Origin: Salinispira pacifica
Lineage (GTDB): Bacteria; Spirochaetota; Spirochaetia; DSM-27196; Salinispiraceae
Assembly: GCF_000507245.1 (NCBI RefSeq)
Contig: NC_023035.1
Location: forward strand, 1,403,501 to 1,467,500
DNA: 64,000 bases
Reading direction: 5' to 3'
The position numbers and the translations under genes were made by a program. The notes beneath the pieces were generated by a model. That model saw only the letters and a program-made list of their open reading frames with translations, was not told the DNA's origin and searched no databases. Numbering within the stretch: position 1 is the stretch's first letter; every line of letters starts with the position of its first letter. Shown in pieces: positions 19,567 through 37,187 of this stretch.

Positions 19567-22500
19567 ATGAACAAGTTCCTCCGGATTACATGCATGCTTG
19601 TTGCAGGTTTTTCTGCAGTACTGCCCCTTTCCCTCTCCCGGTCATTCGGCCTGTCCGCCCAGGTAATAGCGGATTCTGACCGGGTAGGGTGGCCGCCGGC
19701 ATCGGATCAGCTGGATATCCATTCCATGGCGGATGCGGCTTTTGAAGCCGGGGATTATCCCCGCGCAGTCAGACTGTACCGGCGGCTCCTGCAGAGCGCC
19801 AAGGCGGAGATTTATGTACGGCTGGCTGAAAGTCACCTCCTGGCATCACAGCCCTTGGCGGCTCTCGGGGTACTGAATCAGGCCCGGCGTCAGCCTGGGG
19901 TCTCTGAACCGGAACTTCTGTTTCTCCGGGCCCGTGCCCATGTTCTTCTTGAACAGCCGGAACGGGCAGTTGAGTATGTTGATATGCTTCTGGCAGATTC
20001 CCCGCAACTGTATGCCGAATATCCGGAAATATGGCGCGGCAGTCATAAATTGAGACTGGCTGCAGTGGATAACACCCGTGCCCGGGAACAGTTGTTCACG
20101 GATCTCTCCGCCCCGTGGTATACCCGTGCGGCAACCGAACTTGAACGTACAGCTGCCCGGGCACTCTATGGGGAGCAGCGCTATGAAGAACTTGCCTCCT
20201 GGCTGGATGCCAGGTTCAGCCGGTTCCCCGGCCTGACCGAAGAGCGGGAATTGCAGCTTCTCAGAGCGGAGGCATTGTATTTCCTTTCCTCCGCCGGGGC
20301 CGGGAGCGGGGAACCGGATCCTGGATCAACGGATCCTGTATCACCGGATTCTGTATCACAGGATAGAGAGGACGTGATTGCCGCATATGAAAACTTGAGA
20401 AGCAGGGTGGATGAGTTTACCCCCCAGGTGTATGTCCGGCTCTTCGACCTGTACAGAAACCGAGCAGCGGGGGGAGCACCGCAGGTGAGTGAGCTTCTGG
20501 AGGCTGCACAGCGGGATCTTGAAGCGCATCCTGATATTCTCGGGGCATTTTATGAGCGGATGCTCAGCGAACGCTTCCCCAGCGGAGATGAGGAAGCCGT
20601 CGGGAGGGCAATCACCCGTCTTGACCGTCTGGGAACTGAATTCCAAAGCTATATTACCCCGTATTACAAAGCACTCCGGCTGCTCCGGGACGAAGACCCC
20701 GGGAGCGTGGATGCCGCCCGGCAGGCAATCCGCTCCTACCTGCGTGCAGGGGGTGAGAACGATCCCTGGCTGGATCTGCTGCTTTCCGAACTGGATTACC
20801 GGCAGGGGAATTATTCCGCCGCCTGGCAACGGATAGAGAATCCTCTTCCGCAAGAGAGTGATGCATCGGCAACGGTCTACGGGGAGGATTTTCGCCGTCA
20901 GCGTCTTGAAATTATGCTCTATTCTCTCTATGCCGCAGGAGAATACCAACGAAGTGCCCGGCTGGGAGCTGAGCATGTTGACGAATATCCCCGTATCAGA
21001 CCGGTAACAGCCCGATCTTACGGGGGAATGGGGAATTTCGCCCGGGCTGTGCAGGTGCTCGAGCCGCTCTTCTCCCCAGGCAGCGGCGTTAGCCCCGAAG
21101 ACGGATTGCGTTCCGAATATTATCAGTACCTTGTGAAACTCGGCCGATGGCCGGATATTATCTCGGCGCAGCAAGGGTTTTCCCCCGATCAACCCCGTGA
21201 TTATCCTGCCAGCAGATATCTGTACGGCCTGGCACTGATCCAGACCGGAAATTTCCCTGAGGCGGTTAAGTTGTTCGGGACTCTGATACAGGAGGAACCG
21301 GGAGCGGAGCTGGAGATCTATGCAGATTACTATCTGGGATGGGCTTCCTTCCGGAGTTCCCGGGATGAAACCGCCCTGGAAGCATATGAGCGGCTGGTAA
21401 ACCGTCTGAAGGATGATGTTCAGCAGGGTGAAGATCCTGCAATTCCCTCCGCTGCTCCCGGCGCCCTGGAACTGTTTGTCCGGGGAGCCTATGAGGGAGC
21501 CTGGGCCGCCTTGCGGATGGAGGACTACGAAAGAGGTCTGGACCTGCTGAATACACTCCTGGATTCATCAACTTCCCCCTCCCTGCAGGAAACTCCGGAG
21601 GGAGGGGAAGCCGCTGATATTTTTGCCAGAGCCGTGTATTTGCGGGCCAAACTGCTGATGCTGGACCAAAGAGCAGAAGACGCCGCAGCAGCGTTGATTG
21701 ATTTCAGGGACCGCTATCCCCGGCACGAGCTGGCGGATGAGGCCCTCCTGGATTATGCCAGGGTTCGGGCGTCACAGGGACAGGTGAACAGAGCGGTGCG
21801 CAGCCTCTATGAGCTGATCAGTGCATATCCGGACAATTCCAACGCAGCCCTGGCCGCATACCGCATCGGCGAACTGTACTATCAGAACGACCGCTTCCAG
21901 GAGGCCAGAGAGGCATTCAACAGCTACCGGGACGAATACCCCCGGGACGGCAACATAGATGCGGCTCTCTATTTCAGCGGAAGAGCATCCTGGCAGTCCG
22001 GGGAAACCGCCGCCGCACGTCTCTACTGGAATAATCTGGTGGAAAACTTCCCGGACAGTTATTTCCGGTTGAATACCATGCTTCTGCTGGCTGAACTCTA
22101 TGCGGAACAGGGCAGGGAGTCCGCCGCCGCCGGCCTCTACGACATGATAACTTCGGAGTATCCCGGACAGGCGGAGAACCTGGGTATAGAAGAGCGGAAG
22201 AGCGCACTGTCCCGGTCGGCTCCCGCCGATGATTCCTGGTCCGTTCTGGAATCAGATCCCCGTCTCACAGAACAGGCGGCCAGAGACCGTGTACTGGAGC
22301 TTGGTAAAACACTGATTATCGATCAGGCGGGGATCAGACAGCGCAGTCAGGATCTGGGGCCCTATCTTGAAACCCTCAGTTCCAGCGGGGATGCAAGCCC
22401 CCGGGAGCGTTCCCGCGCACTTTATCTGCTGGGACGGGGAGCTCTGCAGAGGGCGGAGTATTCCCGGGCGGCGGAATATTTCATTGATGCTGCGCTGAGC

Positions 22501-22701
22501 AACAGCAGCGACTGGCAGCGTGCCCCGGAATATCTCTACTTTGCTCTGGAGTCATACAGCCGTCAGGGTGCGGATCAGGAGGCCCTGGCAATTTATCAGC
22601 AGATGAAGGAAATATATCCCGATTCAAGCTGGACACTGGACGGGCGCAGGGCGATCCGCCGTTATATCCCCGGAGCTCTGCCATCAGGAGATGATCTATG
22701 A
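19567..22701 (+). CDS. Large exported TPR-repeat protein
   Basis: 1044 residues. Signal peptide about 1-36 (ending SRSFGLSAQ). The remainder is helical repeats of 34-40 residues in BamD/CpoB style, clearest at about 55-110, 535-590 and 690-880 (ADEALLDYARVRASQGQ, AAYRIGELYYQNDRFQEAREAF, AALYFSGRASWQSGETAAARLYW). A Ser/Asp/Pro insert lies near 245-265 (DPGSTDPVSPDSVSQD, itself repeat-encoded). It is expected to act in the periplasm as a protein scaffold. It overlaps the next gene by four bases (ATGA) and lies upstream of exbB-exbD-tonB-like genes, so I infer it is part of that machine, as CpoB is with Tol. Confidence 0.8.
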   Translation: MNKFLRITCMLVAGFSAVLPLSLSRSFGLSAQVIADSDRVGWPPASDQLDIHSMADAAFEAGDYPRAVRLYRRLLQSAKAEIYVRLAESHLLASQPLAALGVLNQARRQPGVSEPELLFLRARAHVLLEQPERAVEYVDMLLADSPQLYAEYPEIWRGSHKLRLAAVDNTRAREQLFTDLSAPWYTRAATELERTAARALYGEQRYEELASWLDARFSRFPGLTEERELQLLRAEALYFLSSAGAGSGEPDPGSTDPVSPDSVSQDREDVIAAYENLRSRVDEFTPQVYVRLFDLYRNRAAGGAPQVSELLEAAQRDLEAHPDILGAFYERMLSERFPSGDEEAVGRAITRLDRLGTEFQSYITPYYKALRLLRDEDPGSVDAARQAIRSYLRAGGENDPWLDLLLSELDYRQGNYSAAWQRIENPLPQESDASATVYGEDFRRQRLEIMLYSLYAAGEYQRSARLGAEHVDEYPRIRPVTARSYGGMGNFARAVQVLEPLFSPGSGVSPEDGLRSEYYQYLVKLGRWPDIISAQQGFSPDQPRDYPASRYLYGLALIQTGNFPEAVKLFGTLIQEEPGAELEIYADYYLGWASFRSSRDETALEAYERLVNRLKDDVQQGEDPAIPSAAPGALELFVRGAYEGAWAALRMEDYERGLDLLNTLLDSSTSPSLQETPEGGEAADIFARAVYLRAKLLMLDQRAEDAAAALIDFRDRYPRHELADEALLDYARVRASQGQVNRAVRSLYELISAYPDNSNAALAAYRIGELYYQNDRFQEAREAFNSYRDEYPRDGNIDAALYFSGRASWQSGETAAARLYWNNLVENFPDSYFRLNTMLLLAELYAEQGRESAAAGLYDMITSEYPGQAENLGIEERKSALSRSAPADDSWSVLESDPRLTEQAARDRVLELGKTLIIDQAGIRQRSQDLGPYLETLSSSGDASPRERSRALYLLGRGALQRAEYSRAAEYFIDAALSNSSDWQRAPEYLYFALESYSRQGADQEALAIYQQMKEIYPDSSWTLDGRRAIRRYIPGALPSGDDL

Positions 22702-24599
22702 ACCCGCTACACCAACCAATTATTGCGGCTGAACCTTCAGAGCGTCTCCCCGTCCCGGCCCAGCCTGCCCGTACCGGGGGGGCGGCCGTCTCCCGGCACT
22801 ATGCCAATGTGATCACCGGCCCGGCGCCGGTTCTCAGAATCGGCCTCTTCCTGTGCCTGGTCTTCTTCGGGATGCCCGCAGCCGTTTCTTCCCAGGAGGA
22901 GGCGCTGAACGCCCCGGAGTCCACCAGTCTGGTTCTGCCCGACGTGATTGTGGATCTTCCCGAGCCGGATTACGGGGATGTTCAAACTCTCCTGCCCGGT
23001 GACCAGGGAGAGGAGTACAGCTATCGGGCGCTGCCCAGGCCCCGGCAGCTTGCGGATCCCGGTCTTCCCTCCAACGGGGGTGAACCCGCAGCCGGCGACG
23101 GCGAAGACAGCGGCAGGGGAGGGGAAAATCCTGCTCCCCGGATTCAGTTCGGTCTGGGGGGCGGCTATGCCCCCGGAATGAACGGGTATGTGCAGCTGTT
23201 TGACCCCCGAGGCAGCTATCTTCTGGCTGCGGATCATACTCAGTCCTGGGGGGATTTTTCCCGGGGGTACACGCCTCCTGATCAGGGGTTCGCTCTCAGC
23301 AGGTCCCGCATCACCGGAAGGATTGAACCGTTCCATCTTCTTGCCGATTACCAGTTCCGGGGCCTGGGGGCACTGGAATCTTACCGGGCCCAGCATCTTC
23401 TGGATGCAGAGGCAGGTGTGGAATGGGGTATTGCAGGATTCAGCGGTGAATTTAATTCAGGTCAGGACCTGAGACGGATTGTTCCTGCCGTTGAAGCCGA
23501 AGGGGATATACCAAACATCTTTTTGCGCTTTTCTGCAGACAGTTCAAACCGTTACCGGAAGGAGTGGGAACGTTCCGTTCTGGAATTTCCGTTGAACTAC
23601 CGTCTGGAATTGAGTCCCCAGTACGGCCTCTGGCATGATCTGAGTCTGGGCGCAGAGTTCAGACATGCTGCAGGTGAACTCTGGAGCTTCGATCTGGGCT
23701 ACATCCCCGGCATCAGCCGTGGACCGGGGGCAGGTGAACCGGAGCTGAACGACGAAACAGGGGATGCCCCGGGTTTCAGCTATTCCCGTCCCGGATACCG
23801 GGGAATAAACCACAATTTCCATCTGGGACTGGGGTTCAACGGGGAGAAATGGGGTCACGATTTTCGTGGCGGATTCGAGCAGCTGCGGCCTGATGAAACG
23901 GAATTGTGGAGAACTCATCCTCTGTTGTCTCCCTTTTATGTGATCCCGGAAAGCAGCGGGGAGATCGGCGACATCCAGGCAGCCGCCGATGCTGCAGCAC
24001 AGATCGTTCCGGGAGCAGCCCAAAACCGCCCGCTAATCAGAAGATGGTTCTTCTCCACCCTGAGCGAATTTGCACTGACCGATGATCTGCTGCTCAGCGG
24101 GGGAGTTGATACGTATTATTACTACGAACGGCCTGTGGCCGGGGACTGGTCCCAGGCCGTCACATTCGGGGATGACGGCCGGGAATTCCGTAACTGGTAC
24201 GCATCCCGGGGGCTGAATTTTGTCACCACCCTTGGATTTCGTGGGTTATTCTCAGAGAACATCTTCGGCGGAGTAACCTGGGTAGGGAATTTTCTCCTGA
24301 ATGACGGACTTCAGCCCTCTCAGCAGCTTGAGGCAGAGGCGGAGATTCAGAATCAAAATGACCTTCTCAGCGCAGGGGTTCGCATGGAGCTGAATCTGTT
24401 TCGCAGTCTGCAGCCGCCTCTGTTCAGTATTATCGGGGGCTGGAACATCAGCCCGCTCTGGGCTCTCAGTCTGGAGATTTCAGATCCTGTGGCGGCGTTT
24501 CTGTCCCGGGGAAGGTTCCTGCACGATTCCGGGGTCAGTCCGATACAGACCCGGGGGTTCACCGTGGACCTGTTCGTTGAATATAGAAATAGTAAGTGA
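22698..24599 (+). CDS. Outer-membrane beta-barrel protein of unknown family
   Basis: 633 residues from ATG 22698 (AGGAG upstream). A long N-region precedes the hydrophobic signal (about 50-72, IGLFLCLVFFGMPAAVSSQ). A Pro/Glu/Gly-rich segment (about 75-155) follows, then about 470 residues of alternating strands rich in Gly, Tyr and Trp (QFGLGGGYAPGMNGYVQLFD, NHNFHLGLGFNGEKWGHDFRGGF, DDLLLSGGVDTYYYYERP), ending in FTVDLFVEYRNSK. That pattern fits a barrel of about 16-20 strands. There is no TonB-dependent-receptor plug or TonB box that I can see. Its coupling to the TPR gene and the downstream exbB suggests it is the outer-membrane end of the complex. Confidence 0.68.
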   Translation: MNPLHQPIIAAEPSERLPVPAQPARTGGAAVSRHYANVITGPAPVLRIGLFLCLVFFGMPAAVSSQEEALNAPESTSLVLPDVIVDLPEPDYGDVQTLLPGDQGEEYSYRALPRPRQLADPGLPSNGGEPAAGDGEDSGRGGENPAPRIQFGLGGGYAPGMNGYVQLFDPRGSYLLAADHTQSWGDFSRGYTPPDQGFALSRSRITGRIEPFHLLADYQFRGLGALESYRAQHLLDAEAGVEWGIAGFSGEFNSGQDLRRIVPAVEAEGDIPNIFLRFSADSSNRYRKEWERSVLEFPLNYRLELSPQYGLWHDLSLGAEFRHAAGELWSFDLGYIPGISRGPGAGEPELNDETGDAPGFSYSRPGYRGINHNFHLGLGFNGEKWGHDFRGGFEQLRPDETELWRTHPLLSPFYVIPESSGEIGDIQAAADAAAQIVPGAAQNRPLIRRWFFSTLSEFALTDDLLLSGGVDTYYYYERPVAGDWSQAVTFGDDGREFRNWYASRGLNFVTTLGFRGLFSENIFGGVTWVGNFLLNDGLQPSQQLEAEAEIQNQNDLLSAGVRMELNLFRSLQPPLFSIIGGWNISPLWALSLEISDPVAAFLSRGRFLHDSGVSPIQTRGFTVDLFVEYRNSK

Positions 24600-24638
24600 C
24601 GTGGATAAACTGACGTGGATAAACTGACGTGGATAAAC
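24597..24638 (+). repeat. 14-bp tandem repeat (3 copies) at the end of the barrel gene
   Basis: TGACGTGGATAAAC three times. The barrel gene's stop codon TGA is the first three bases of copy 1, so the duplication has not changed the protein. The rest of the gap to exbB (24639-24703) shows only the GGGGAG ribosome site. Confidence 0.95.
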
Positions 24639-24703
24639 TAGTGCCGTATGTACTGTGAAATACCAATATCAGGTAAAAGAATTACGGCCGGGGAGAAAAA
24701 CAC

Positions 24704-25408
24704 ATGAATGAAATAATCAGCAGCGGAACCATAATTCTGGCACTCATCGCTTTGCTGTCGGTAACGGCTGTGGGGATTATCATCGAAAGGATGAGATATT
24801 TCCGGAAAAGCCGTGCGGATGAGGACAGACTTCTTGAACGGATCCGTCACAGCCTTGAGAAAGGCTTCTATGATGAAGCCCTGAGCATCTGTGAACAGAA
24901 TCCCGGACCCCTCAGCGATCTGATGAAAGTGGGGATAGAATACCGCAAATATTCACCCGAGGTGATCCATGATCTCATCTCCGATGCAGCCAATCTGGAA
25001 GTACCCAAAATGGAGCGAAACATTGCCCTGCTGGGAACCATCGCCCATATCACCCCCCTTCTGGGACTGCTGGGTACGGTAACCGGGAACATTCAGGCTT
25101 TCGGAGTGCTCAGCGACTTTGGTGCCGCAGCGGATCCCGGTTTGCTTGCCGGGGGAATCGCCGAAGCGCTGGTAACAACCGCAGCAGGTATCGTTGCGGC
25201 AATTCCTGCAATTGCCTTTTACAACCAGCTTGTGAGCAAGGTGAACCACAACCTCATTCGGCTGGAAAACCGGGTGAGTGAACTGGTGGTACTCCTCAAA
25301 GGGGACGTGGGAAGCAAAACCATGGCTGATCTGGGCACATCCAGTGCCGCCACTGCCTCGTCCCGGGGAACCGGTTCAGGTCTGAAAAGCGGAGGTTCCC
25401 GATCATGA
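24704..25408 (+). CDS. exbB: ExbB/TolQ/MotA-family proton channel subunit
   Basis: 234 residues. Three membrane helices: about 5-27, 100-132 (LLGTIAHITPLLGLLGTVTGNIQAF) and 146-172 (IAEALVTTAAGIVAAIPAIAFYN), with the family's conserved LLGLLGTV and ALVTTAAG pore segments. A cytoplasmic loop lies between helices 1 and 2. The Ser/Gly-rich tail (about 205-234) is low complexity. It forms the proton channel of the inner-membrane motor with the next gene. ExbB and TolQ cannot be told apart by eye. Its stop overlaps exbD by four bases. Confidence 0.93.
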   Translation: MNEIISSGTIILALIALLSVTAVGIIIERMRYFRKSRADEDRLLERIRHSLEKGFYDEALSICEQNPGPLSDLMKVGIEYRKYSPEVIHDLISDAANLEVPKMERNIALLGTIAHITPLLGLLGTVTGNIQAFGVLSDFGAAADPGLLAGGIAEALVTTAAGIVAAIPAIAFYNQLVSKVNHNLIRLENRVSELVVLLKGDVGSKTMADLGTSSAATASSRGTGSGLKSGGSRS

Positions 25409-25944
25409 AATTCCGCCGTCAGCTGAAAGCACAGGTGCAGCCGGATCTCATTCCCATGATCGATATTGTATTCCAGCTTGTGGTGTTTTTTATGGTGTCC
25501 AGCACCTTTGTGGTGGCTCCGGGCATCGGTCTGGATCTCCCGGAATCCTCCACCGAGGAACAGGTGAGCATGGATCTGTATCAGATCAGTCTCAACTCTG
25601 ATGGCCGGATGTTCTTTCAGGACCGGGAAATAACCATGAATCAGCTTCCGGCCCTGTTGAACGACCTTGATACCGATGAAAAGCAGCGGGTGGTAATTCA
25701 GGGAGATGCGGGGGTTCCCCTGCAGCAGCTGGTGAGTCTGCTGGATACCCTTCGCTCCAACGGCGTACGAAATGCCAGCATCCTGGCCAAAAATCCCGCA
25801 CCCGCCTCCAGCCCTGAACGTGGGGATTCTCCCGAGGGTGGTGCGGCCGGCGATGCAGCCGGAAATTCCTCCGGTAATTCCTTCGGGAATACATCCGGGA
25901 ACACATCCGGAAACACATCCGGAAATACAGAGGAGCAGCCTTGA
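25405..25944 (+). CDS. exbD: ExbD/TolR-family motor subunit
   Basis: 179 residues. Short cytoplasmic N-terminus, one membrane helix (about 17-40) with the proton-carrying Asp in PMIDIVFQLVVFF, then the periplasmic ExbD fold (about 45-130; QISLNSDGRMFFQDREI, RVVIQGDAGVPLQQLVSLLDTLRSNGV). The C-terminal tail (about 135-179) is Ser/Gly/Asn-rich and carries six 12-bp repeats encoding GN[ST][SFE] units, an unusual addition for ExbD. It is preceded and followed by four-base overlaps, which implies tight coupling with exbB and the tonB-like gene. Confidence 0.92.
   Translation: MKFRRQLKAQVQPDLIPMIDIVFQLVVFFMVSSTFVVAPGIGLDLPESSTEEQVSMDLYQISLNSDGRMFFQDREITMNQLPALLNDLDTDEKQRVVIQGDAGVPLQQLVSLLDTLRSNGVRNASILAKNPAPASSPERGDSPEGGAAGDAAGNSSGNSFGNTSGNTSGNTSGNTEEQP
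25861..25932 (+). repeat. In-frame 12-bp tandem repeat in the exbD tail (6 copies)
   Basis: Six diverged units (GGNAAYWCMTYC-like) encoding GNSS-GNSF-GNTS-GNTS-GNTS-GNTE. The last three complete copies are nearly identical, so the array grew recently at its 3' side. Confidence 0.92.
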
Positions 25945-27047
25945 AAGAAGGAGCCCGTCTCAGTACATCCATGGTCATCTCTCTTCTGATCCACCTGGTA
26001 CTTATATCTCTGTGGCTGATCATTTCCGCCATCTCTCCCCCGGAGGAACCGGAAACCCTGCAGGTAGTGCTTGCGCCGGCAGCTCCTCCCCCTGCAGTTG
26101 ATGCCTCAGACCCTGAGAACGACACAACCAGGCTCCCTGAAGCTCCGGAGTCCGCAGTAGAAACGCCGGAAGCACCGCCCGAAGCAGCAACAGAATCAGC
26201 GCCGGAATCGGCCCCCGATCCGGCCGCCGATCCAAACCCGGCTGAGAACAGCCGGGGAACCTCAACAGATTCCCGGTCCCAGCCCTCCGGCGGTTCCCGA
26301 CCCCCTGAGACCGCCAGAGCCGATGATGCCGCAGGAAGGACAACTCCTCCGACCATACCCGACGATCCCGATCCCCTGGACTGGCAGGTTCCCAGGGAAA
26401 GGGATGAACGCAGCTCCACCGACCTCAGCGGGTTTCTCAGCGATGATGAACAGTCGGAGCGGGATCGGCAGCTTGAAGAGTGGCGTAACAGCAATTCCGC
26501 CGGCGATACTGGCGGATCCGACAGCACGCCTGGCCGGGATACAGCCCCTCCCCGCTCTGACACCGGTGAAGATGATCCGGGTGAAAGGGGCCCGGACCCT
26601 GAGCTTGCTGAGCGTCTGGCGTGCATCCGGGAAGAGACCCGAAGCAGCGACAACAGTGCTGACTCCGACCGGGCGGACGGCCCATCAGAAAGCCCGGCGG
26701 ATGACCAGACAAGCGATCCGGACAGGGATCCCGGGGACAGCAGCGCAGAATCTCTCCGCCGGCAGGGAATTTCCGGGGAAATCCTCCAGCAGGGCAGGGA
26801 CCTGATCAGCGAAGATCGGCTTGATCTCGGCCGATATCTGGATCAGAGTGATGTGAGCTGGGATTCACGGATTCGAATTAAGTTCACCGTTGACAGTGAT
26901 GGCTTTGTCACCATCTTGAATCCGGAGAGTTACTCGGCCTATAATCAGCTGAGCAGAGCCATTGAGCGCCTTTTTACCGGTCCGGTGTTCGAGCCCGATC
27001 CCGATGCGCCTCCTGTTCGAGGGTCAATCGTATTTCAAATCCGCTGA
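25941..27047 (+). CDS. TonB/TolA-like energy transducer
   Basis: 368 residues from TTG 25941, which overlaps the exbD stop and follows GAGGA. One N-terminal membrane helix (about 11-32, MVISLLIHLVLISLWLII, with the His-containing helix typical of TonB). A long Pro/Glu/Asp/Ser-rich, probably extended, periplasmic spacer (about 35-285). A TonB-like C-terminal domain (about 300-368: IRIKFTVDSDGFVTILNP, LSRAIERLFTGPVFEPD, RGSIVFQIR). It would transmit force from ExbB/ExbD to a partner at the outer membrane, here probably the co-encoded TPR protein or barrel (inference). It is the last gene of the long operon. Confidence 0.85.
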   Translation: MKEGARLSTSMVISLLIHLVLISLWLIISAISPPEEPETLQVVLAPAAPPPAVDASDPENDTTRLPEAPESAVETPEAPPEAATESAPESAPDPAADPNPAENSRGTSTDSRSQPSGGSRPPETARADDAAGRTTPPTIPDDPDPLDWQVPRERDERSSTDLSGFLSDDEQSERDRQLEEWRNSNSAGDTGGSDSTPGRDTAPPRSDTGEDDPGERGPDPELAERLACIREETRSSDNSADSDRADGPSESPADDQTSDPDRDPGDSSAESLRRQGISGEILQQGRDLISEDRLDLGRYLDQSDVSWDSRIRIKFTVDSDGFVTILNPESYSAYNQLSRAIERLFTGPVFEPDPDAPPVRGSIVFQIR

Positions 27048-27148: not shown

Positions 27149-27811
27149 ATGAAACAGATACACGCAGTTGCCTTCGATATAGACGGAACCTTATATCCCA
27201 ACAGGAGAATGTATCTGGCCAGTCTGGGGTTTGCCCTGGGCCATTTCCGGCTGCTGAATGCCTTCAGAAAAGTTCGCAAGGAACTGAGAGATACCCGTCC
27301 GGTGGAGGATTTTTATGAGCTTCAGGCCCGGCTTTTCGGCCGGCGGATCGGTGTGGACACCGACGAAGCCCGGGAAATCATAAACCGCACCTTCTATACC
27401 CGTTGGGAATCGGTACTCCGCAAGGTGAACCTTTATCCCGGAGTATTGGACCTGATCCGGTTGCTCAAGGAAAAAAATATTCCCCTGGCGGTGATGTCCG
27501 ATTTTCCCGTTGTAACCAAGATGAAAATTCTCAACATCGAAAACTATTTCGATGTTGAAATGAGCTCTGAAGAGGTGGGCTATCTGAAGCCTAATCCCGA
27601 GCCTTTCCTGGAAATGGCCCGGCAGCTGAATGTGAAGCCGGAAAATCTTCTCTATGTGGGGAACAGTTTTCACTACGATGTGTTGGGCGCACACTCCCTG
27701 GGAATGATGACTGCACATATCAGCTCCCGAAAACCGGAAAAATCTCCTGCGGATTTTACATTTAAAAGATATTCTTCACTCCGGGACTGGATTCTTCCCC
27801 GGCTTGATTGA
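27149..27811 (+). CDS. HAD-superfamily hydrolase (subfamily IA)
   Basis: 220 residues. Motif I DIDGTLYPN with nucleophile and acid/base Asp near residues 8-10, motif II MSDFP, motif III K in EVGYLKPNPEPF, motif IV YVGNSFHYDVLGAHSLGM. An alpha-helical cap lies between motifs I and II (about 15-90), as in phosphoglycolate phosphatase-like enzymes. Substrate cannot be told. It stands apart from its neighbours. Confidence 0.88.
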   Translation: MKQIHAVAFDIDGTLYPNRRMYLASLGFALGHFRLLNAFRKVRKELRDTRPVEDFYELQARLFGRRIGVDTDEAREIINRTFYTRWESVLRKVNLYPGVLDLIRLLKEKNIPLAVMSDFPVVTKMKILNIENYFDVEMSSEEVGYLKPNPEPFLEMARQLNVKPENLLYVGNSFHYDVLGAHSLGMMTAHISSRKPEKSPADFTFKRYSSLRDWILPRLD

Positions 27812-27903: not shown

Positions 27904-28821
27904 ATGTCCATCCGTCCTGTTACAAAAATATCCCACGCAAGTCCCGCAATAGAGGGTGCCGGTGTGCATCTGCACCGGGCATTCGGTTTCGGAGATACCG
28001 CAGCCAGTGATCCGTTCCTTCTTTTCGATGATTTCCGGAACAACGATCCCCGGCTGTACAGCAAAGGTTTTCCCTGGCATCCCCACCGGGGAATTGAAAC
28101 CATCACCTATGTTCTGGCCGGAGAAGTGGATCACGGCGACAGTCTGGGGAATACGGGAACACTGGGTGCAGGAGATGTTCAGTGGATGACCGCCGGAAGC
28201 GGAATCATTCATCAGGAGATGCCCCGGGGAGATGCTGCAGGTGCCATGCACGGGTTTCAGCTGTGGGCGAACCTGCCTTCATCCAAAAAAATGACCGACC
28301 CCAGGTATCAGGATATCCCCTCCGGAGAAATACCCGAGGTAACCGAGGACGACGGAACCAAGGTGCGCATCATCACCGGAGAGTTCTGGGGAAAGCGGGG
28401 CCCGGTTGAGGGCATTGCGGCAGACCCCCGTTATCTGGATATCTCCGTCCCGCCGGGAAAAGAGCGTTTTTTCAAAATCGATCTGACTCACAACGCCTTT
28501 GCATATGTGTTCGCCGGTTCCGGCAGCTTTCGGGGTGCCTCGGATCCGTTTCTTGCTCCCACCGAGTATGTAAATGCAGAGGGCACCACAGAAGCGCTGC
28601 CCTCACACCCTGTGGAGAACCGCAATCTGGTCTTGTTCGACCGGGGTGATGAAGTTCTGGTGAGAGCGGGGGAGGATGGGATCCGGTTCCTTCTGGTCTC
28701 CGGCCAGCCCCTGAAAGAGCCTGTTGCCTGGCACGGGCCCATTGTAATGAACAGTCAGGGAGAGATCCGTCAGGCTCTCAGTGATCTTCAGACCGGGAAT
28801 TTTCTCAGGACTTCCCAATAA
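27904..28821 (+). CDS. Pirin-family bicupin protein
   Basis: 305 residues. N-terminal cupin with the metal-binding pattern of pirins: HPHRGIETITYVLAGEVDHGDSLGN, with both HxH histidines, and WMTAGSGIIHQEMP with the later His and Glu. DPFLLFDDFR near residue 40 and GFQLWANLPSSKKM are also typical. Some pirins oxidise quercetin; others bind regulators or metabolic enzymes. The role here is unknown. GAGG precedes ATG 27904. A palindrome at 27868 suggests its own control. Confidence 0.92.
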   Translation: MSIRPVTKISHASPAIEGAGVHLHRAFGFGDTAASDPFLLFDDFRNNDPRLYSKGFPWHPHRGIETITYVLAGEVDHGDSLGNTGTLGAGDVQWMTAGSGIIHQEMPRGDAAGAMHGFQLWANLPSSKKMTDPRYQDIPSGEIPEVTEDDGTKVRIITGEFWGKRGPVEGIAADPRYLDISVPPGKERFFKIDLTHNAFAYVFAGSGSFRGASDPFLAPTEYVNAEGTTEALPSHPVENRNLVLFDRGDEVLVRAGEDGIRFLLVSGQPLKEPVAWHGPIVMNSQGEIRQALSDLQTGNFLRTSQ

Positions 28822-28912: not shown

Positions 28913-31900
28913 ATGATGTTTACGCTGGGAGACCTGCTCATCCTCAGCGTGGCGGTGATAGTTGTATTAATATTCCGCCACCTGGACAGGAATAACAGAT
29001 CCCTGGAGAAGGTTAAGAAGTTCAGTGACCGGATCCAGCAGGAACTTGCAGAAATTGCCGAAGAAAAATCACAACAGCTACAGGATATCTCTATAGGGGT
29101 GGATGTGCATCAGCAATCCGCCCGGAGGGCTATAGAGCGTCTTGAGGCATCCGCCGAAGAGCTGAATGCCAAAGCAGCTCACATCGATGAAATTCAGCAA
29201 CGCATAGACGAGTATGATTTAGCTTTGAAACAGTTGGTGGAAATGACCAATAAGGCTGAAGAGAACATGAAGGGAATCCAGAAGGAATCCGCCTATGTTG
29301 ATACCGTGGGCAGGCGGATCAAGGATGCCCGGAAACAGATGGAGGGAATCGAAAAGCAGATCCCCTCTTTGTTGGAAGATTTCGAGAAGCGGAACTCCCG
29401 CCAGCTGGAACATACCGGTGCACAGGTTCTTAAAGACGGCGAAAAAATGGCCGCCGATCTTCAGCAGAGGGTGGAGGATGCCAGAGCTCAGGCGGCGGAT
29501 ACCCTCAGCGGACTGGAACAGCGGTCACTGGAAGTCCAGGCGGGGATGGATGGTCATTCGGCATCGCTGGTTGAATCTATGGAGGAGCGTTTCGGTGCAT
29601 TCCGGGATGAACTGAACCAGGCCGAAGAGACTTTCCGCAGCAAAATGAATGAGATAGCCACCAAGGCCAGAAACTTTGAACTTCAGGCATTTTCCGAACT
29701 CCAGGAGGAACTGGACGGAAGAAGAAGCGACCTTCGAAGCTCATTAATCGAGAGCATGGAGCAGCAGCAGAGCGAACTTGAGCAGAAGTTCGAAGATGCC
29801 CGGCAGGAGAACAGTTCCAGGCTGGATACTACTCTCGGCGAACTTCAGGAGCAGCTTCGGGAAGACAGCTCTCTGATTAAAACCCAGGCTCAGGAACAGC
29901 AGCAGGAGCTGACCCGGAAATTCAGCGAGCTTGAGTCAGAGCTTGAAGAACAGAGCTCTTCCTACCGGGGGCGGCTGAGCGAACATCAGGAAGAATTCGA
30001 AAACGGGTTCATTCGGATCCAGCAGGAAATTGAAGACAAACTGCAGCAGAGCCGTGAAGAGGGCAGCCTGAAAGCCGACGAGCTGCTGAATCGCATCAGC
30101 ATGGACGTGGAGGCCAGAGGGCAGAGTCTGGAGCAGACAATCGAAAATCAGCTCCAGGACCTGGATGCCCGGGTTCAGCTTTCCCATAATCAGATCGACA
30201 CCCGTTTCTCCGAGCTTCGGGAGCGCCTTGATGACTGGATGGAGCGATCCAACAGCTATATCGGAAATCTGGATACCCGGTTCTCCGAACTGAATGAAAA
30301 GAGCATCAGGCTGGAACAGGATCATACCGCCCGGCTTGAACAGATAGAAGCCGAAATTGTACGCACCGAGGACGATGTAAACACCCGCTTCCAGAGCCTG
30401 AAAAATGCAAGTCAGCAGCTTGTCCACGATGCCGAGGAGTACGTGAACCGGGAAATCCAGGAAAGCAGCGAACGCAATACCCGGAATCTGGAGAACCGCT
30501 TCTCCCAGGTGGACAGTAAGATACAGGAGGCTCAGGACTCGGCCTATCAGCAGGTGGAGCAAATTCGTCAGCGCATAGAGGAATGGCAGGAAGGGTTCCA
30601 GGCTGAGATGGATGCCCACAGCGGTGAAGGAGCAAAGCTCCTCCACCAGGCCAGAGAAGAGTTTATGGAAAAGGCCCGTCGGGTGTATGACGACCAGGAT
30701 GAGCGTTCCAAAGAACTCCAGGAGAACTTCCAGGCCATCATCCGGGAGCAGGATCAGAAACTTCACGAACAGCTGGATTCCAGCGGACATGAGATACAGA
30801 GGATTCAAGGCCTGCAGGAAGATAACCAGCGGAAAATTCAGGAGATAGACGTAAGCCTTCAGAATGCCGTGGATGAGCTGCGCCGGAAGTTAAGCGACAC
30901 TCATGGAAACCTGGAGCAAAGCATTTCTGAAGAAACCCTGCAGATGGAGCAGAAAATTCTGGGGCAGCTTGAAAAGCGTCTCATGGATTACGAGGGCAGC
31001 ATCAACTACCGCCTTTCCCGTCTTGAAAATGTGGGTGCTGAGCTGGAGGAAATGGATTCCAGAATTCACGAATCCATGGAGTTGGTCTCTGCATCTGTAA
31101 ATGACGATATGGAAAAAATGAGTCAGGAGCTGAAGAGTCAGCGGGAAGAGGATCTGGTTCGAGCCCGGGAGGAGATGGAAACCCTGGCGCATCAGATCTC
31201 ATCTCATCAGCAGGAATTGGAAGATCTGAAGGAACAGAGTCATGCCAGCATGTCAAAGCAGCTGGAAGTCCTGGAGCAGGAATTTTTCAATGATCTTCGA
31301 CAGCGCCAGCAGAATCTGGATAAGCGTCTTGAGTCCTGGACTGAAGAATTTGACAGCAACCTGGACAGACTGAGCAGTGAAGCAGAAGAAGAGCGCCTGA
31401 ACCTGGAACGAAAGTACGTGGATGACTTTGCCGGCCGTATCGAGAGTCTTCGCGGCGGACTCGGGGACCGGATTGATGAGCTTCAGAGCGAGTTCAGAGA
31501 CAGGGAAGGCTTGATCCGGGAGGACTTAAATGCTCTCGCCGAAAAGGTAGGCTCGGCAAAGGCGGGGCTTGATGACCAGCTGGGAGTTTTTGAACAGCAG
31601 TCACGCTCAATTATTGATGACCGTTTTCAGGATATCCAGACTTTGCTCAGCAGCAAGCTTACTGAAGCGGAATCTGACATGGATGGTAAACTGTCCCGGC
31701 TTCATCAGAGCATGAGCGAACGGGACGGAGAAATCCGGGAACTTCATGAAACCATTCGCTCAGATGTCACCATCTGGCAGAATCAGATTCTCCAGCGTCT
31801 GAAAGGCTCGGAGAGCGGAATCGAAGAGGAGATGTCCAATTTCAGGGTGAGAATTACCGAAACCCTGACTGCACTGAAAGAAGAATACAGCAGCGAGAAG

Positions 31901-33133
31901 GATGATATTGTCGCCTCCGGGGAGAACGCCCGGGCCCAGCTCCGTAACGGTATCCAGGAAGCATCTGTACAGCTGAATGAACTTCAGTCAAATCTTAACG
32001 ATAAGACCGAAGAGGCTCTGAATCGTTTCAATATGGACTACCAGAGTTTTATCAAAGAGATCGAACAGAAGGGCCGGGAATTCGGTCATGAAGTGGATGA
32101 TTCGGTTCGGGAGTTCAGGGGATTCGTTTCATCCACAAGAGACGAGTTTGAGGCTGCGCAAAAGCGGCTTATGGACCGTCTCAACGAAGATCTCCGTATG
32201 CTTGATGTGAATATCAAACAGATTGAGAAAAAACAGAAAAATTTCCTCCAGCAGACCAAGCTTTTTGAGCGGGCCGATAATCTGAAAAAGAGCCTGATGG
32301 AAGATGTGGCACAGCTGAAATCCGAAATTGATCGGGTGCAGAATGAGCGCAAGCAGGTTGAGGAGCTGGACGGAGAATTTAAGCGGATTCGAAAACTCGG
32401 CGATGAAGCCACCGAAAAAATGAACCGGTTCATCGGTGAACAGCGCAGGCTGGAAGGTATTGAGGATGATTATAAAAAACTGATGACCCTCTCTTCCAAC
32501 GTGGACAGTCAGTTGGATAAGGTTACCAGTAAGCACGACAGTCTCCAGCAGATGCAGCTTGCCATCCGCAATCTGGATGATCTGCAGAAAGAGCTGGATC
32601 AACGCTACGACCGCCTGAGCAAGCGGAAGGAAGTGATCGATACTACCCTGGAAGGGGTGGATAGAAACTTTCATCAGCTTACCGATCTTGAAACGCGAAT
32701 TACCGACCTTCATGGCCATATCAGCGGACTGAACAAGAACGCCGATGATCTGAAGGAACGCCTTGAGAGCCTTGCCATGAATAAAAAGGAATCGGATATG
32801 GCCTTGAGGAATCTCAATAACCTGAACCAGGCCATGGAAGAGATCGATCAGCGTATGTCGGATATGCAGAAGGCCAGAGAATGGCTGGCCCGCACCGAGA
32901 CCCGCCTGGAAGACGTTTCCCAGCAGGCGGATCAGCGGGTTCAACTCCTGGGCAGCATTACCGGGCAGCAGAAAAACGGCGCAGCTGAAGATGACCGCCC
33001 GGCTCCTTCGGTTTCGGTGCGGGATATGGTAATCAAACTGAAACACCAGGGATGGAAAATCGAGGATATCGCCAAATCCTGCAAGGTTTCCCGGGGAGAA
33101 GTTGAGCTGATTCTTGAGATGGCCCACCGCTGA
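28913..33133 (+). CDS. SpiroCoCo-type giant coiled-coil protein with C-terminal helix-turn-helix
   Basis: 1406 residues. A single membrane helix at the N-terminus (about 4-22), then about 1300 residues of nearly unbroken heptad-rich coiled coil, very rich in Glu, Gln, Arg, Ser and Asp and poor in Pro. From about 1360, SVRDMVIKLKHQGWKIEDIAKSCKVSRGEVELILEM forms a helix-turn-helix of the sigma-region-4/DUF6115 style. It matches my memory of the NCBI 'SpiroCoCo family coiled-coil protein'. It is likely a cytoplasmic filament or scaffold attached to the inner membrane; whether the HTH binds DNA is open. Its own promoter and terminator make it monocistronic. Confidence 0.85.
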   Translation: MMFTLGDLLILSVAVIVVLIFRHLDRNNRSLEKVKKFSDRIQQELAEIAEEKSQQLQDISIGVDVHQQSARRAIERLEASAEELNAKAAHIDEIQQRIDEYDLALKQLVEMTNKAEENMKGIQKESAYVDTVGRRIKDARKQMEGIEKQIPSLLEDFEKRNSRQLEHTGAQVLKDGEKMAADLQQRVEDARAQAADTLSGLEQRSLEVQAGMDGHSASLVESMEERFGAFRDELNQAEETFRSKMNEIATKARNFELQAFSELQEELDGRRSDLRSSLIESMEQQQSELEQKFEDARQENSSRLDTTLGELQEQLREDSSLIKTQAQEQQQELTRKFSELESELEEQSSSYRGRLSEHQEEFENGFIRIQQEIEDKLQQSREEGSLKADELLNRISMDVEARGQSLEQTIENQLQDLDARVQLSHNQIDTRFSELRERLDDWMERSNSYIGNLDTRFSELNEKSIRLEQDHTARLEQIEAEIVRTEDDVNTRFQSLKNASQQLVHDAEEYVNREIQESSERNTRNLENRFSQVDSKIQEAQDSAYQQVEQIRQRIEEWQEGFQAEMDAHSGEGAKLLHQAREEFMEKARRVYDDQDERSKELQENFQAIIREQDQKLHEQLDSSGHEIQRIQGLQEDNQRKIQEIDVSLQNAVDELRRKLSDTHGNLEQSISEETLQMEQKILGQLEKRLMDYEGSINYRLSRLENVGAELEEMDSRIHESMELVSASVNDDMEKMSQELKSQREEDLVRAREEMETLAHQISSHQQELEDLKEQSHASMSKQLEVLEQEFFNDLRQRQQNLDKRLESWTEEFDSNLDRLSSEAEEERLNLERKYVDDFAGRIESLRGGLGDRIDELQSEFRDREGLIREDLNALAEKVGSAKAGLDDQLGVFEQQSRSIIDDRFQDIQTLLSSKLTEAESDMDGKLSRLHQSMSERDGEIRELHETIRSDVTIWQNQILQRLKGSESGIEEEMSNFRVRITETLTALKEEYSSEKDDIVASGENARAQLRNGIQEASVQLNELQSNLNDKTEEALNRFNMDYQSFIKEIEQKGREFGHEVDDSVREFRGFVSSTRDEFEAAQKRLMDRLNEDLRMLDVNIKQIEKKQKNFLQQTKLFERADNLKKSLMEDVAQLKSEIDRVQNERKQVEELDGEFKRIRKLGDEATEKMNRFIGEQRRLEGIEDDYKKLMTLSSNVDSQLDKVTSKHDSLQQMQLAIRNLDDLQKELDQRYDRLSKRKEVIDTTLEGVDRNFHQLTDLETRITDLHGHISGLNKNADDLKERLESLAMNKKESDMALRNLNNLNQAMEEIDQRMSDMQKAREWLARTETRLEDVSQQADQRVQLLGSITGQQKNGAAEDDRPAPSVSVRDMVIKLKHQGWKIEDIAKSCKVSRGEVELILEMAHR

Positions 33134-33167
33134 TCTCTGCTCCTCCTGCGAGACCCTGTCCCGATCC

Positions 33168-33207
33168 AATTTCATTGCCGCCAGAATCCGGCGGTAATGA
33201 AATTTTT
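33168..33207 (+). terminator. Terminator of the giant coiled-coil gene
   Basis: A 15-bp stem with a single G-U pair (33168-33182 with 33190-33204), seven-base loop AGAATCC, and a run of T at 33203-33207. Confidence 0.9.
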
Positions 33208-33304: not shown

Positions 33305-33958
33305 GTGGCCGTCGAGGATAAGGAGCAGCAGGTGGATGAAGCATCCCCGGAATCCGGCTCTGAAGATGACGCCCAGGCTGAGGCCGGGGAAGGGTCTGAA
33401 CTGAGTACCGATGACGATTTATCCGTAAAGGATAAGGAAATCGAACGTTTACAGCAGGAAAACAGTGATCTGAAGGATCAGTTTTTACGGAAACAAGCCG
33501 ACATGGACAACTTCAGAAAACGTCTGCTGAAAGAAAAAGAAGATGCAATAACCTTCGCAAATAAACAGCTGTTGCTGGATTTAATTACCATCATTGATAA
33601 TTTCGAACGCGCTATTAAAAGTTCTGAGGGTGCAAGGGATTTTGATTCCTTTCATGACGGAATTGTAATGATTGAGAAGGAATTCGTGGGAATGCTCGAG
33701 CGAAAGTGGCATTTAACACGGTTCGAATCAGAAGGCGAAGAGTTCGACCCCATGAAGCATGAAGCTATGATGGTTGAAGAATCCAGTGATCACGATCATC
33801 AGGTGGTGCTTCAGGACTTTCAGAAAGGGTATATGCTGAAGGATCAGGTGCTTCGTGCAGCAAAGGTAAAGGTTTCCCAGCCCGTGTCTGAAGCCCGGCA
33901 AGAAGCGGGAGATCAGGCAAAAGCTGCGGATGAAACTCATGATGATGGCGGGGAATAA
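33305..33958 (+). CDS. grpE: Nucleotide exchange factor GrpE
   Basis: 217 residues from GTG 33305 (AGGAGGA just upstream). An acidic N-terminal tail (about 1-45), a long dimerising helix (about 45-95: KQADMDNFRKRLLKEKEDAITFAN), then the beta-wing domain (about 130-190: HLTRFESEGEEFDPMKHEAMM, GYMLKDQVLRAAKVKVS). It releases ADP from DnaK. First gene of the operon; the acidic C-terminal tail (about 198-217) is also low complexity. The 137-base gap to dnaK holds a small CCCGCA/TGCGGG hairpin (34056-34074) and no clear promoter. Confidence 0.96.
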   Translation: MAVEDKEQQVDEASPESGSEDDAQAEAGEGSELSTDDDLSVKDKEIERLQQENSDLKDQFLRKQADMDNFRKRLLKEKEDAITFANKQLLLDLITIIDNFERAIKSSEGARDFDSFHDGIVMIEKEFVGMLERKWHLTRFESEGEEFDPMKHEAMMVEESSDHDHQVVLQDFQKGYMLKDQVLRAAKVKVSQPVSEARQEAGDQAKAADETHDDGGE

Positions 33959-34095
33959 AAATTCCTCCCCGCTGAGTCTGTTGAATAATTGGATCAGAAA
34001 TGGGGGAACGCCGGATCACCGGGTACTCCCGACTAAATTAATAATTTGACGAAATCCCGCAGAGAGCATGCGGGTGGAAATGCAAGGAGATATGT

Positions 34096-36051
34096 ATGGG
34101 TAGAATAATCGGAATTGACCTCGGCACAACCAATTCCTGTGTAGCCGTAATGGAAAGCGGTGAATCTGTAGTAATTCAGAATGCGGAAGGGCAGCGAACC
34201 ACGCCTTCAATGGTAGCCTACACTGCGAAGAATGAACGGCTGGTGGGACAGCCTGCGAAAAATCAGATGGTAACCAATCCCGACCATACCATCTATTCCA
34301 TTAAGCGTTTCATGGGCCGACGGGGCAACGAAGTTGACCAGGAAGTAACCATGGTTCCCTACAATGTTGATATCTCAGATAAAACCTCTGCAGTAAAAGT
34401 GGTGGTTGGCGACAAAAAGTTCACCCCCCCGGAAATCTCCGCAGCAATTCTGCAGAAGATGAAGGAAACCGCCGAGAGTTATCTGGGTGAAACGGTTACC
34501 GAGGCTGTTATTACCGTTCCTGCCTATTTTAACGATGCCCAGCGTCAGGCCACCAAGGATGCGGGCCGGATTGCAGGTCTGGAAGTAAAACGTATTGTGA
34601 ATGAGCCCACTGCAGCGGCTTTGGCATACGGTTTCGGCAAGGAAGGAAAAGACGAAAAAATCGCCGTATACGACCTGGGCGGCGGTACATTTGATATTTC
34701 CATCCTGGAACTGGGTGACGGTGTTTTCGAAGTAAAATCCACCAATGGAGACACTCACCTGGGCGGTGACAATTTCGACCAGAAAATTATCGACTGGCTG
34801 ATTGAAAATTTCAGAAATGACTACGGCATTGACCTGAGCAAGGATCGGATGGCTCTTCAGAGACTGAAAGAAGCTGCAGAGAAGGCCAAGAAAGAGCTCT
34901 CCTCAACTGCGAGCACAGACATCAATCTGCCGTTTATTACCGCCGATGACTCGGGCCCTAAACATATGCAGTACAATCTCACCCGGAGCAAATTTGAACA
35001 GCTTGCGGATGATCTGATCAAACGCACAGAAGCTCCCTGTAAAGCTGCACTGAAAGATGCCGGACTGAGCGCATCTGATATCGATGAGGTGATTCTGGTG
35101 GGAGGAAGCACCAGAATTCCCGCCGTACAGACACTGGTGAAGGAAATATTCGGCCGGGATCCCCACAAGGGTGTAAACCCTGATGAAGTGGTTGCCCTTG
35201 GTGCCGCAATTCAGGGTGGTATTCTCGGTGGAGATGTGAAGGATGTGCTTCTCCTTGATGTTACGCCCCTTTCTATGGGAATTGAAACCCTGGGCGGAGT
35301 GTTTACCAAACTGATAGAGCGGAACACGACCATTCCCACCCGGAAAACCCAGATATTCTCCACTGCAGCGGATAATCAGACTGCGGTATCCATTCATGTG
35401 CTACAGGGTGAGCGTGAGATGGCTTCCCAGAACCGGACCTTGGGCCGTTTTGATCTGGCTGAAATACCACCTGCACCCAGGGGCGTTCCCCAGATTGAGG
35501 TTACCTTCGATATTGATGCTAACGGTATCGTGCACGTCAGTGCAAAAGACCTGGGAACCGGCAAGGAACAGAAAATCCGCATAGAAAGCAGCTCCGGTCT
35601 GAGTGAAGATGAAATCAACAAGATGGTGAAAGATGCAGAGGTTCATGCGGAAGAAGACAAGAAGCTGAAGGAAGGGGTTGAAACCCGGAATGAAGCGGAC
35701 AGTCTGATATATGCCACTGAAAAATCTGTGAAAGATTACGGCGATAAAATCGGTGACGACGAAAAGAGCAAGATTAATGACGCCATCGCCGATCTGAAAA
35801 AGTCCCTGGAAGGGGACGATCTGGATGATATCAAAGCCAAAACAGAGGCACTCAAGCAGGCAAGCTACAAACTGGCAGAAGAGGTGTACAAGGATCAGGG
35901 CGGCGAACAGGCTCAGCCCGGTTCCGAGGGTGCCGATGCCGGAGCAGCAGGCGGTGAACAGGCCGGCGGTGCCGAGCAATCATCCGGTTCCACTTCCAAG
36001 GACAATGTCGAAGACGTTGACTATGAAGTAGTGGACGAGGATGATAAGTAA
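34096..36051 (+). CDS. dnaK: Chaperone DnaK (Hsp70)
   Basis: 651 residues. ATPase domain with [28 protein letters not shown] and [10 protein letters not shown]; substrate-binding domain with [14 protein letters not shown], then the helical lid, a Gly/Ala/Gln-rich tail (about 600-640) and the [14 protein letters not shown] end that contacts partners. ATG 34096 has AAGGAGA. dnaJ follows two bases after the stop. Full length, no anomalies. Confidence 0.98.
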
Positions 36052-36053
36052 TA

Positions 36054-37187
36054 ATGGCTAAACGAGATTATTACGAAGTCCTTGGAGTCTCCAAAGGAGC
36101 CTCCAAGGACGAAATTAAAAAAGCCTACCGGAAGCTGGCGGTTAAACATCACCCCGACAAAAACCCCGGAGACAAGAAGGCTGAGGAGCTTTTCAAAGAA
36201 GCTTCTGAGGCCTATGAGGTTCTCGCTGACGATAAAAAGCGCCAGACCTATGATCAGTTCGGTTTCGCCGGACTTGAAGGCATGGGCGGCGGAGGCGGCG
36301 GAGCCCAGGATTTCTCCAGCGTCTTCCGGGATTTCGGCGATATTTTCGGTGATTTCGGAATTTTCGACTCGTTCTTCGGCGGTGGCGGCCGGGGAGGGGG
36401 CGGTCAGAGACGTCGCAGCTCCGCCGTGAGAGGTTCGGATCTGCGCTATGATCTGAAAGTTCCCTTTAAAGATGCCGCATTCGGTACAAAGGTTGAGGTC
36501 AGCTATAACCGCAGTGTTCAATGCGAAAGCTGCAGCGGCCATGGCGCAGAACCGGGAACCGGAAAGAAGACCTGTCCAGGCTGCGGCGGAACAGGTCAGG
36601 TGCGCAGATCCTCGGGCTTCTTTTCGATTGCTTCCACCTGTCCCAACTGCAATGGTGACGGAACTATCATAGAGAGCCCGTGCAAGACCTGCCGGGGTGC
36701 CGGGCGTGTTGAAAAGCACACCAGAATCAAGGTTACAATTCCCCCGGGAATTGAAAACGGGAAGCGGATTAATATTCCCGGACAGGGCGATGCCGGCAAA
36801 AACGGCGGTCCTCCAGGTGATCTGTATGTGTTTATCAATGTAGAGCCCCATGAATATTATGAAAGGGACGGGGCTGATCTCTACTGCGTCATACCTGTGG
36901 ACATTGTGCAGGCCAGTCTGGGAACTGAGATTACCGTACCGACTCTGGAAAACAAACGGGTAAAGCTTAAAATTCCTGCGGGAACCCAGAATGGAAAGAT
37001 TCTCAGACTCAGAAACGAAGGAATACCCCATCTGAATAATGCAAACAAGCGTGGGGATCTCTATATCAAGATCAAAGTGGATGTGCCCACCAAGCTGAGC
37101 TCAAAATCCAAGGATCTTCTGAAGGAGCTGGGAGAACTGGAAGGAAGCAATTCTTCTCCCCAGCCTGTTCCTCTCAGGGAACTGTAG
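36054..37187 (+). CDS. dnaJ: Co-chaperone DnaJ (Hsp40)
   Basis: 377 residues. J domain (1-70) with the HPD motif in [10 protein letters not shown]; a Gly/Phe-rich linker (about 75-120) with an [18 protein letters not shown] stretch; four CxxCxGxG zinc repeats ([32 protein letters not shown], about 158-225); then the C-terminal substrate domain ([25 protein letters not shown]). Activates DnaK's ATPase. No terminator is evident after it. Confidence 0.98.

Follow-up and report, generated by a model that had tools for sequence, protein, structure and literature searches.

In polar gamma-proteobacteria, the GTPase FlhF is recruited by FipA, a protein of 163 residues in which an N-terminal membrane helix and a coil precede a C-terminal domain of the DUF2802 type. 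In Vibrio FipA this domain spans residues 68-135, and it has been demonstrated that the substitutions G110A or L129A abolish FlhF binding whereas E126A does not (PMC11620751). Spirochaetes are listed in that study as lacking FipA, and the positioning of FlhF in bacteria without the landmarks HubP, FimV or FipA has been described as unclear (PMC12826062). A flagellar "TM + HTH" protein has also been named in work on FlgV (PMC11607428). A further single-pass membrane flagellar factor is SwrB of Bacillus subtilis, which activates flagellar secretion and has no long rod. SwrB is small and is encoded in the fla/che operon. Long helical rods also occur among bacterial coiled coils such as crescentin and CfpA; these are heptad-based, and none of them is known to be membrane-anchored with an HTH tail.

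The protein described here resembles each of these systems in one part or another. Its gene lies in a window of 64,000 nucleotides from Salinispira pacifica (NC_023035.1, positions 1,403,501 to 1,467,500), whose relevant features are the following:

27149..27811, plus strand: gene of a HAD-family phosphatase, a conserved upstream neighbour
27904..28821, plus strand: pirin gene, separating the HAD gene from the SpiroCoCo gene, not conserved at this place
28913..33133, plus strand: gene of the SpiroCoCo-family protein, 1406 residues, ATG start, both end domains over the NCBIfam cut-off
28919..28975, plus strand: N-terminal membrane helix, residues 3-21, mean hydropathy 2.70
28934..29692, plus strand: SpiroCoCo_N domain, residues 8-260, the part that aflagellate relatives also retain
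29000..32176, plus strand: middle rod, approximately residues 30-1088, period about 3.64, variable in length within the family
32177..32953, plus strand: conserved C-terminal rod, residues 1089-1347, period 3.45, containing REWLARTETRL
32942..33001, plus strand: disordered linker, residues 1344-1363, AlphaFold2 pLDDT below 50
33011..33127, plus strand: tail, residues 1367-1405, a three-helix HTH-fold domain of the DUF6115/DUF2802 (FipA-like) type
33050..33109, plus strand: key tail residues G1380, E1396 and L1399 (codons at 33050, 33098 and 33107)
33305..37187, plus strand: grpE, dnaK and dnaJ, conserved downstream neighbours

Membership of the SpiroCoCo family (NCBIfam NF047514/NF047515) is established by both ends of the protein, as SpiroCoCo_N scores 208.5 bits against a cut-off of 75 and SpiroCoCo_C scores 339.5 bits against 125, the latter over residues 1089-1401 and the entire profile (1-313 of 313). 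The window protein shows no essential difference from other members, and the LA_3659 family (NF047516) has the same N-terminal profile. Homologues range from 275 to 7,832 residues. The best 80 relatives in the GTDB collection (about 85,000 species) are spirochaetes in every case and none of 14 control genomes exceeds the SpiroCoCo cut-off; the family is specific to Spirochaetota and its function is undescribed. No paper using the name SpiroCoCo was found in a search of the open-access literature, which also gave nothing informative on family members, and searches for related loci with one protein, and then with an alignment of 52 sequences, returned nothing. Nothing supports the long antisense open reading frames, such as one of 348 codons at 32129..33175 on the minus strand. 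The gene is present in a single copy in the complete 3.78-Mb genome. Tandem SpiroCoCo genes with unequal rods are found at G001:C28:13900-26210 (open frames of 2786 and 1304 residues) and G014:C8:82000-95200 (3014 and 1377 residues).

Throughout the Spirochaetia the gene usually lies 3' of the HAD phosphatase gene and often 5' of grpE-dnaK-dnaJ. It stands outside flagellar operons, and no flagellar gene adjoins it in the neighbourhoods examined. Upstream of it, positions 19567-27047 of the window hold a cluster of large open reading frames, ExbB, ExbD and a 368-residue protein; in Spirochaetia such an ExbB/ExbD cluster repeatedly precedes the pair of HAD and SpiroCoCo genes, and similar clusters elsewhere start with a TPR protein.

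The membrane helix that the original prediction placed at the N-terminus was borne out, and a comparable hydrophobic helix occurs in nearly all full-length homologues examined. Since the helix is followed by RHLDRNNR, the anchor is predicted to adopt an N-out/C-in topology.

The approximately 1300 residues that follow had been read as one coiled coil. The long helical region stands, with a single proline in residues 30-1345 and a windowed power of hydrophobic periodicity of 1.49 against a maximum of 0.36 in shuffled sequences, but no single heptad coil runs along its whole length. In the middle part, about 1,060 residues, the hydrophobic period is 3.635-3.645, and only the last 250 residues or so are heptad-like (3.45). 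Autocorrelation peaks at 11, 22, 29, 7, 18 and 51 reveal that spacings of 11 and of 7 residues are mixed in the middle rod, with no internal sequence repeat unit behind them, the hydrophobic periodicity being all that recurs. As judged from this period, which is near the pitch of a straight alpha helix, the middle rod is predicted to be essentially straight, a mixture of hendecads and heptads. The similarity found to proteins of the crescentin/CfpA type is one of coil type only. Both periods were found in every one of 40 homologues, which are 713-2,162 residues long and come from more than 25 families, and a Brachyspira-like homologue of 7,832 residues keeps both end domains and a period of 3.60-3.65 throughout. 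In this last protein (G058:C1:1402000-1426000) the rod periodicity extends over about 7,400 residues. Constancy of the period across homologues of differing length indicates that rod length is free while geometry is fixed; simple arithmetic at 0.15 nm per residue puts the rod lengths, if fully extended, between about 100 nm and 1.1 micrometres. This two-geometry rod is new in this analysis. The rod may form oligomers. An amphipathic helix lying on the membrane, considered on account of a Pfam apolipoprotein match, is disfavoured by the acidic character of the rod (22% D+E against 14% K+R) and by its content of some 26% hydrophobic residues.

At the C-terminus, AlphaFold2 lays out one long helix, the disordered linker and a domain of three helices (residues 1367-1378, 1383-1390 and 1394-1405) with pLDDT of about 75-87. 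The HTH fold foreseen in the original prediction was thus recovered, and Foldseek matches of the tail include Pax, resolvase and Tc3 HTHs. These DNA-binding domains, which also appear among the phmmer matches, are what speaks for the DNA tether proposed earlier, in which the tail would hold the nucleoid at the membrane by binding DNA. Nevertheless, a basic or polar recognition helix is missing: the net charge of the third helix is zero or negative in 52 of 52 homologues (mean -2.1), with acidic residues at +16, +18 and +22 and a hydrophobic one at +19, and 90% of members have a hydrophobic residue where Pax has lysine. Both features favour docking on a protein over binding to DNA. In addition, by sequence the closest relatives of the tail are not DNA-binding regulators but membrane-anchored flagellar proteins, as DUF2802 and DUF6115 rank above generic HTHs in profile comparisons. 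The HTH residues, whose lack of conservation had been named beforehand as one way to refute the DNA-binding proposal, are conserved throughout the phylum as far as the C-terminus (G in 47 of 52 homologues, W in 50 and I in all 52), but in the FipA-like pattern of a protein-binding domain. A nucleoid tether is consequently not supported, and we consider it clearly unlikely; tethering of another filament, or rather of another partner, is possible.

The assignment of the tail to the FipA class draws on several comparisons. DUF6115 matches 39 and DUF2802 23 of the 52 homologues. DUF6115 exceeds the Pfam gathering score (29.9-32.4 bits against 27), a margin that is weak alone because a generic HTH reaches about 27, and DUF2802 gives 26.9 bits on the window protein, under its gathering score of 33.5. 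If the 68-position profile is taken as gapless, G110, L129 and E126 of FipA correspond to its positions 43, 62 and 59 and hence to G1380, L1399 and E1396 of the window protein, which are conserved in 47, 40 and 39 of the 52 homologues, respectively. SpiroCoCo would thereby share with FipA the order of membrane helix, coil and C-terminal domain with matching G, E and L residues. A DUF6115 match was also obtained in the B. subtilis control genome, which we take to be SwrB. A similar short helical end with a weak DUF2802 match (E 0.003) is carried by the product of G000:C1:1045171-1045344, which from its open reading frame appears to be Rpn/PD-(D/E)XK-like, so the tail motif alone is not diagnostic.

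A closer relative of the tail is encoded in the same genome. The flagellar superoperon contains, after flhA, flhF, flhG, a gene for a sigma-28-type factor and fapA, the gene of a 223-residue protein with a membrane helix, a coil and the same tail (L116:10609-11280; G000:C1:1278608-1279279), and genes of this type recur downstream of flhF in many spirochaetes across the phylum. This paralogue corresponds to the "TM + HTH" protein of the FlgV study. Proteins of this type (DUF6115) share with SpiroCoCo the membrane helix, coil, linker and homologous tail, and differ from it in their size (about 165-290 residues) and in being encoded in the flagellar superoperon. The two tails are related with a profile-profile probability of 98.9% and cross-HMM E values of about 1e-13 to 1e-14. 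A common origin of the N-terminal parts was rejected (hhalign 7%, controls up to 15%), leaving the tail as the only shared segment. Profile evidence thus points to homology of the SpiroCoCo tail with the flagellar TM+HTH/FipA class, a relationship that is new here. The presence of such a FipA/SwrB-like protein in the spirochaete superoperon, despite the listing in the FipA study, is an observation in its own right. Two membrane proteins of one genome carrying the same domain might also mean that the SpiroCoCo tail is a decoy or regulator that competes with the flagellar protein for its partner, in which case the rod would serve as a passive spacer. The freely variable rod length would suit this idea, but a geometry that is invariant in all 40 homologues argues against an unconstrained spacer, and we regard it as very improbable.

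The distribution of the tail was surveyed in 392 Spirochaetota genomes, with FlhA, FliP and FliF as markers of the flagellum; the FlhF score was discarded for this purpose because cross-matches to FtsY and Ffh confuse it. The full C-terminal module is present in 326 of the 334 genomes with FlhA, the other eight being fragmented MAGs, and in one of the 58 without it. This lone exception (G279) has FliP and FliF, which indicates that its missing FlhA is an assembly gap. The association (Fisher p 1e-58) ignores kinship, and few independent losses underlie it. SpiroCoCo_C is thus nearly universal outside aflagellate lineages. Loss of the whole gene along with flagella would be a wrong description, as SpiroCoCo_N persists in aflagellate genomes: among 15 aflagellate orthologues, of 275-655 residues and mostly at the same HAD/GrpE-DnaK locus, the anchor is kept in all and the tail is lost in 13, with no hidden tail detected in the tail-less ones by six-frame searches. 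Retention of the anchor by these relatives suggests that it may serve an additional, flagellum-independent role. In the aflagellate family f13, which by inference is Sphaerochaetaceae, the tail is replaced in all 11 inspected genera, usually by acidic sequence. In f14 the tail is gone from aflagellate genera and present in flagellate ones. This pattern of tail loss is new in this analysis.

FlhF follows a related pattern. It is absent from the aflagellate f14 genomes, and f13 keeps a divergent copy (29-36% identity) without the tail. Two families represented by single MAGs, f22 and f23, lack FlhA, FliP and FliF and keep both the tail and FlhF (40-43% identity), with FlhG adjoining FlhF in f23. 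The tail therefore never occurs without FlhF in this sample, while FlhF without the tail does occur.

These distributions bear on whether SpiroCoCo is a general envelope or cell-shape rod, part of a membrane-anchored cytoskeleton in helical cells. Its tail would then bind another copy of itself or an envelope partner unrelated to flagella, and the disappearance of the tail together with flagella would reflect the loss of the spiral body plan. Non-spiral spirochaetes have lost shape and motility together (PMC12236494), and the persistence of the anchor with a short coil in aflagellate genomes, the two tail-bearing MAGs devoid of the flagellar markers and the location of the gene outside flagellar operons would all agree with such a role. 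Homology of the tail specifically to a protein of the flagellar operon, together with the occurrence of FlhF in all tail-bearing genomes where it was tested, weighs against it, and we hold it to be possible though doubtful. OG9070 / LEPBI_a2229, which in the study of non-spiral spirochaetes (PMC12236494) is shared by spiral species, missing from non-spiral ones and apparently essential, is a candidate that may belong to the SpiroCoCo family.

The best reading, unproven and put forward tentatively, is that SpiroCoCo is a membrane-anchored rod that docks on FlhF or on flagellar assembly. The N-terminal helix would anchor the protein in the inner membrane with the remainder in the cytoplasm, and the long, essentially straight rod of freely variable length would carry the C-terminus outward from the membrane or along it. 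The tail would then dock a protein, most likely the FlhF(-FlhG) placement machinery or another flagellar assembly factor, so that SpiroCoCo may tie the assembly site of the periplasmic flagella to membrane or envelope some distance off. Our confidence stays limited because the dedicated TM+HTH paralogue, which stands beside the flhA-flhF-flhG operon while the SpiroCoCo gene does not, may be the real partner of FlhF, and because the loss of flagella went along with that of helical shape and of rod length, in few independent events. The retention of a divergent FlhF without the tail in f13 and the DUF2802 score below the Pfam cut-off also count against this reading. A bolder version, which we consider rather unlikely, is that SpiroCoCo is the missing FlhF landmark of spirochaetes, its tail capturing FlhF-FlhG and setting the site of the periplasmic flagella or their distance from the pole. 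In spirochaetes a defined number of flagella is set close to each end of the cell, and the landmark would in that case be a straight rod that measures, if fully extended, about 100 nm to more than 1 micrometre. As a membrane rod that occurs throughout the phylum and carries a FipA-like tail, SpiroCoCo would be a concrete candidate for FlhF positioning, and the family, named but uncharacterised so far, thereby receives its first functional hypothesis.

Two minor observations concern the aflagellate lineages. The families f13, f22 and f23 keep an FlhF-like GTPase in genomes without FlhA, FliP or FliF, and the replacement sequence in f13, mostly acidic, ends in a GEEEIxLD-like motif that is possibly a new docking peptide.
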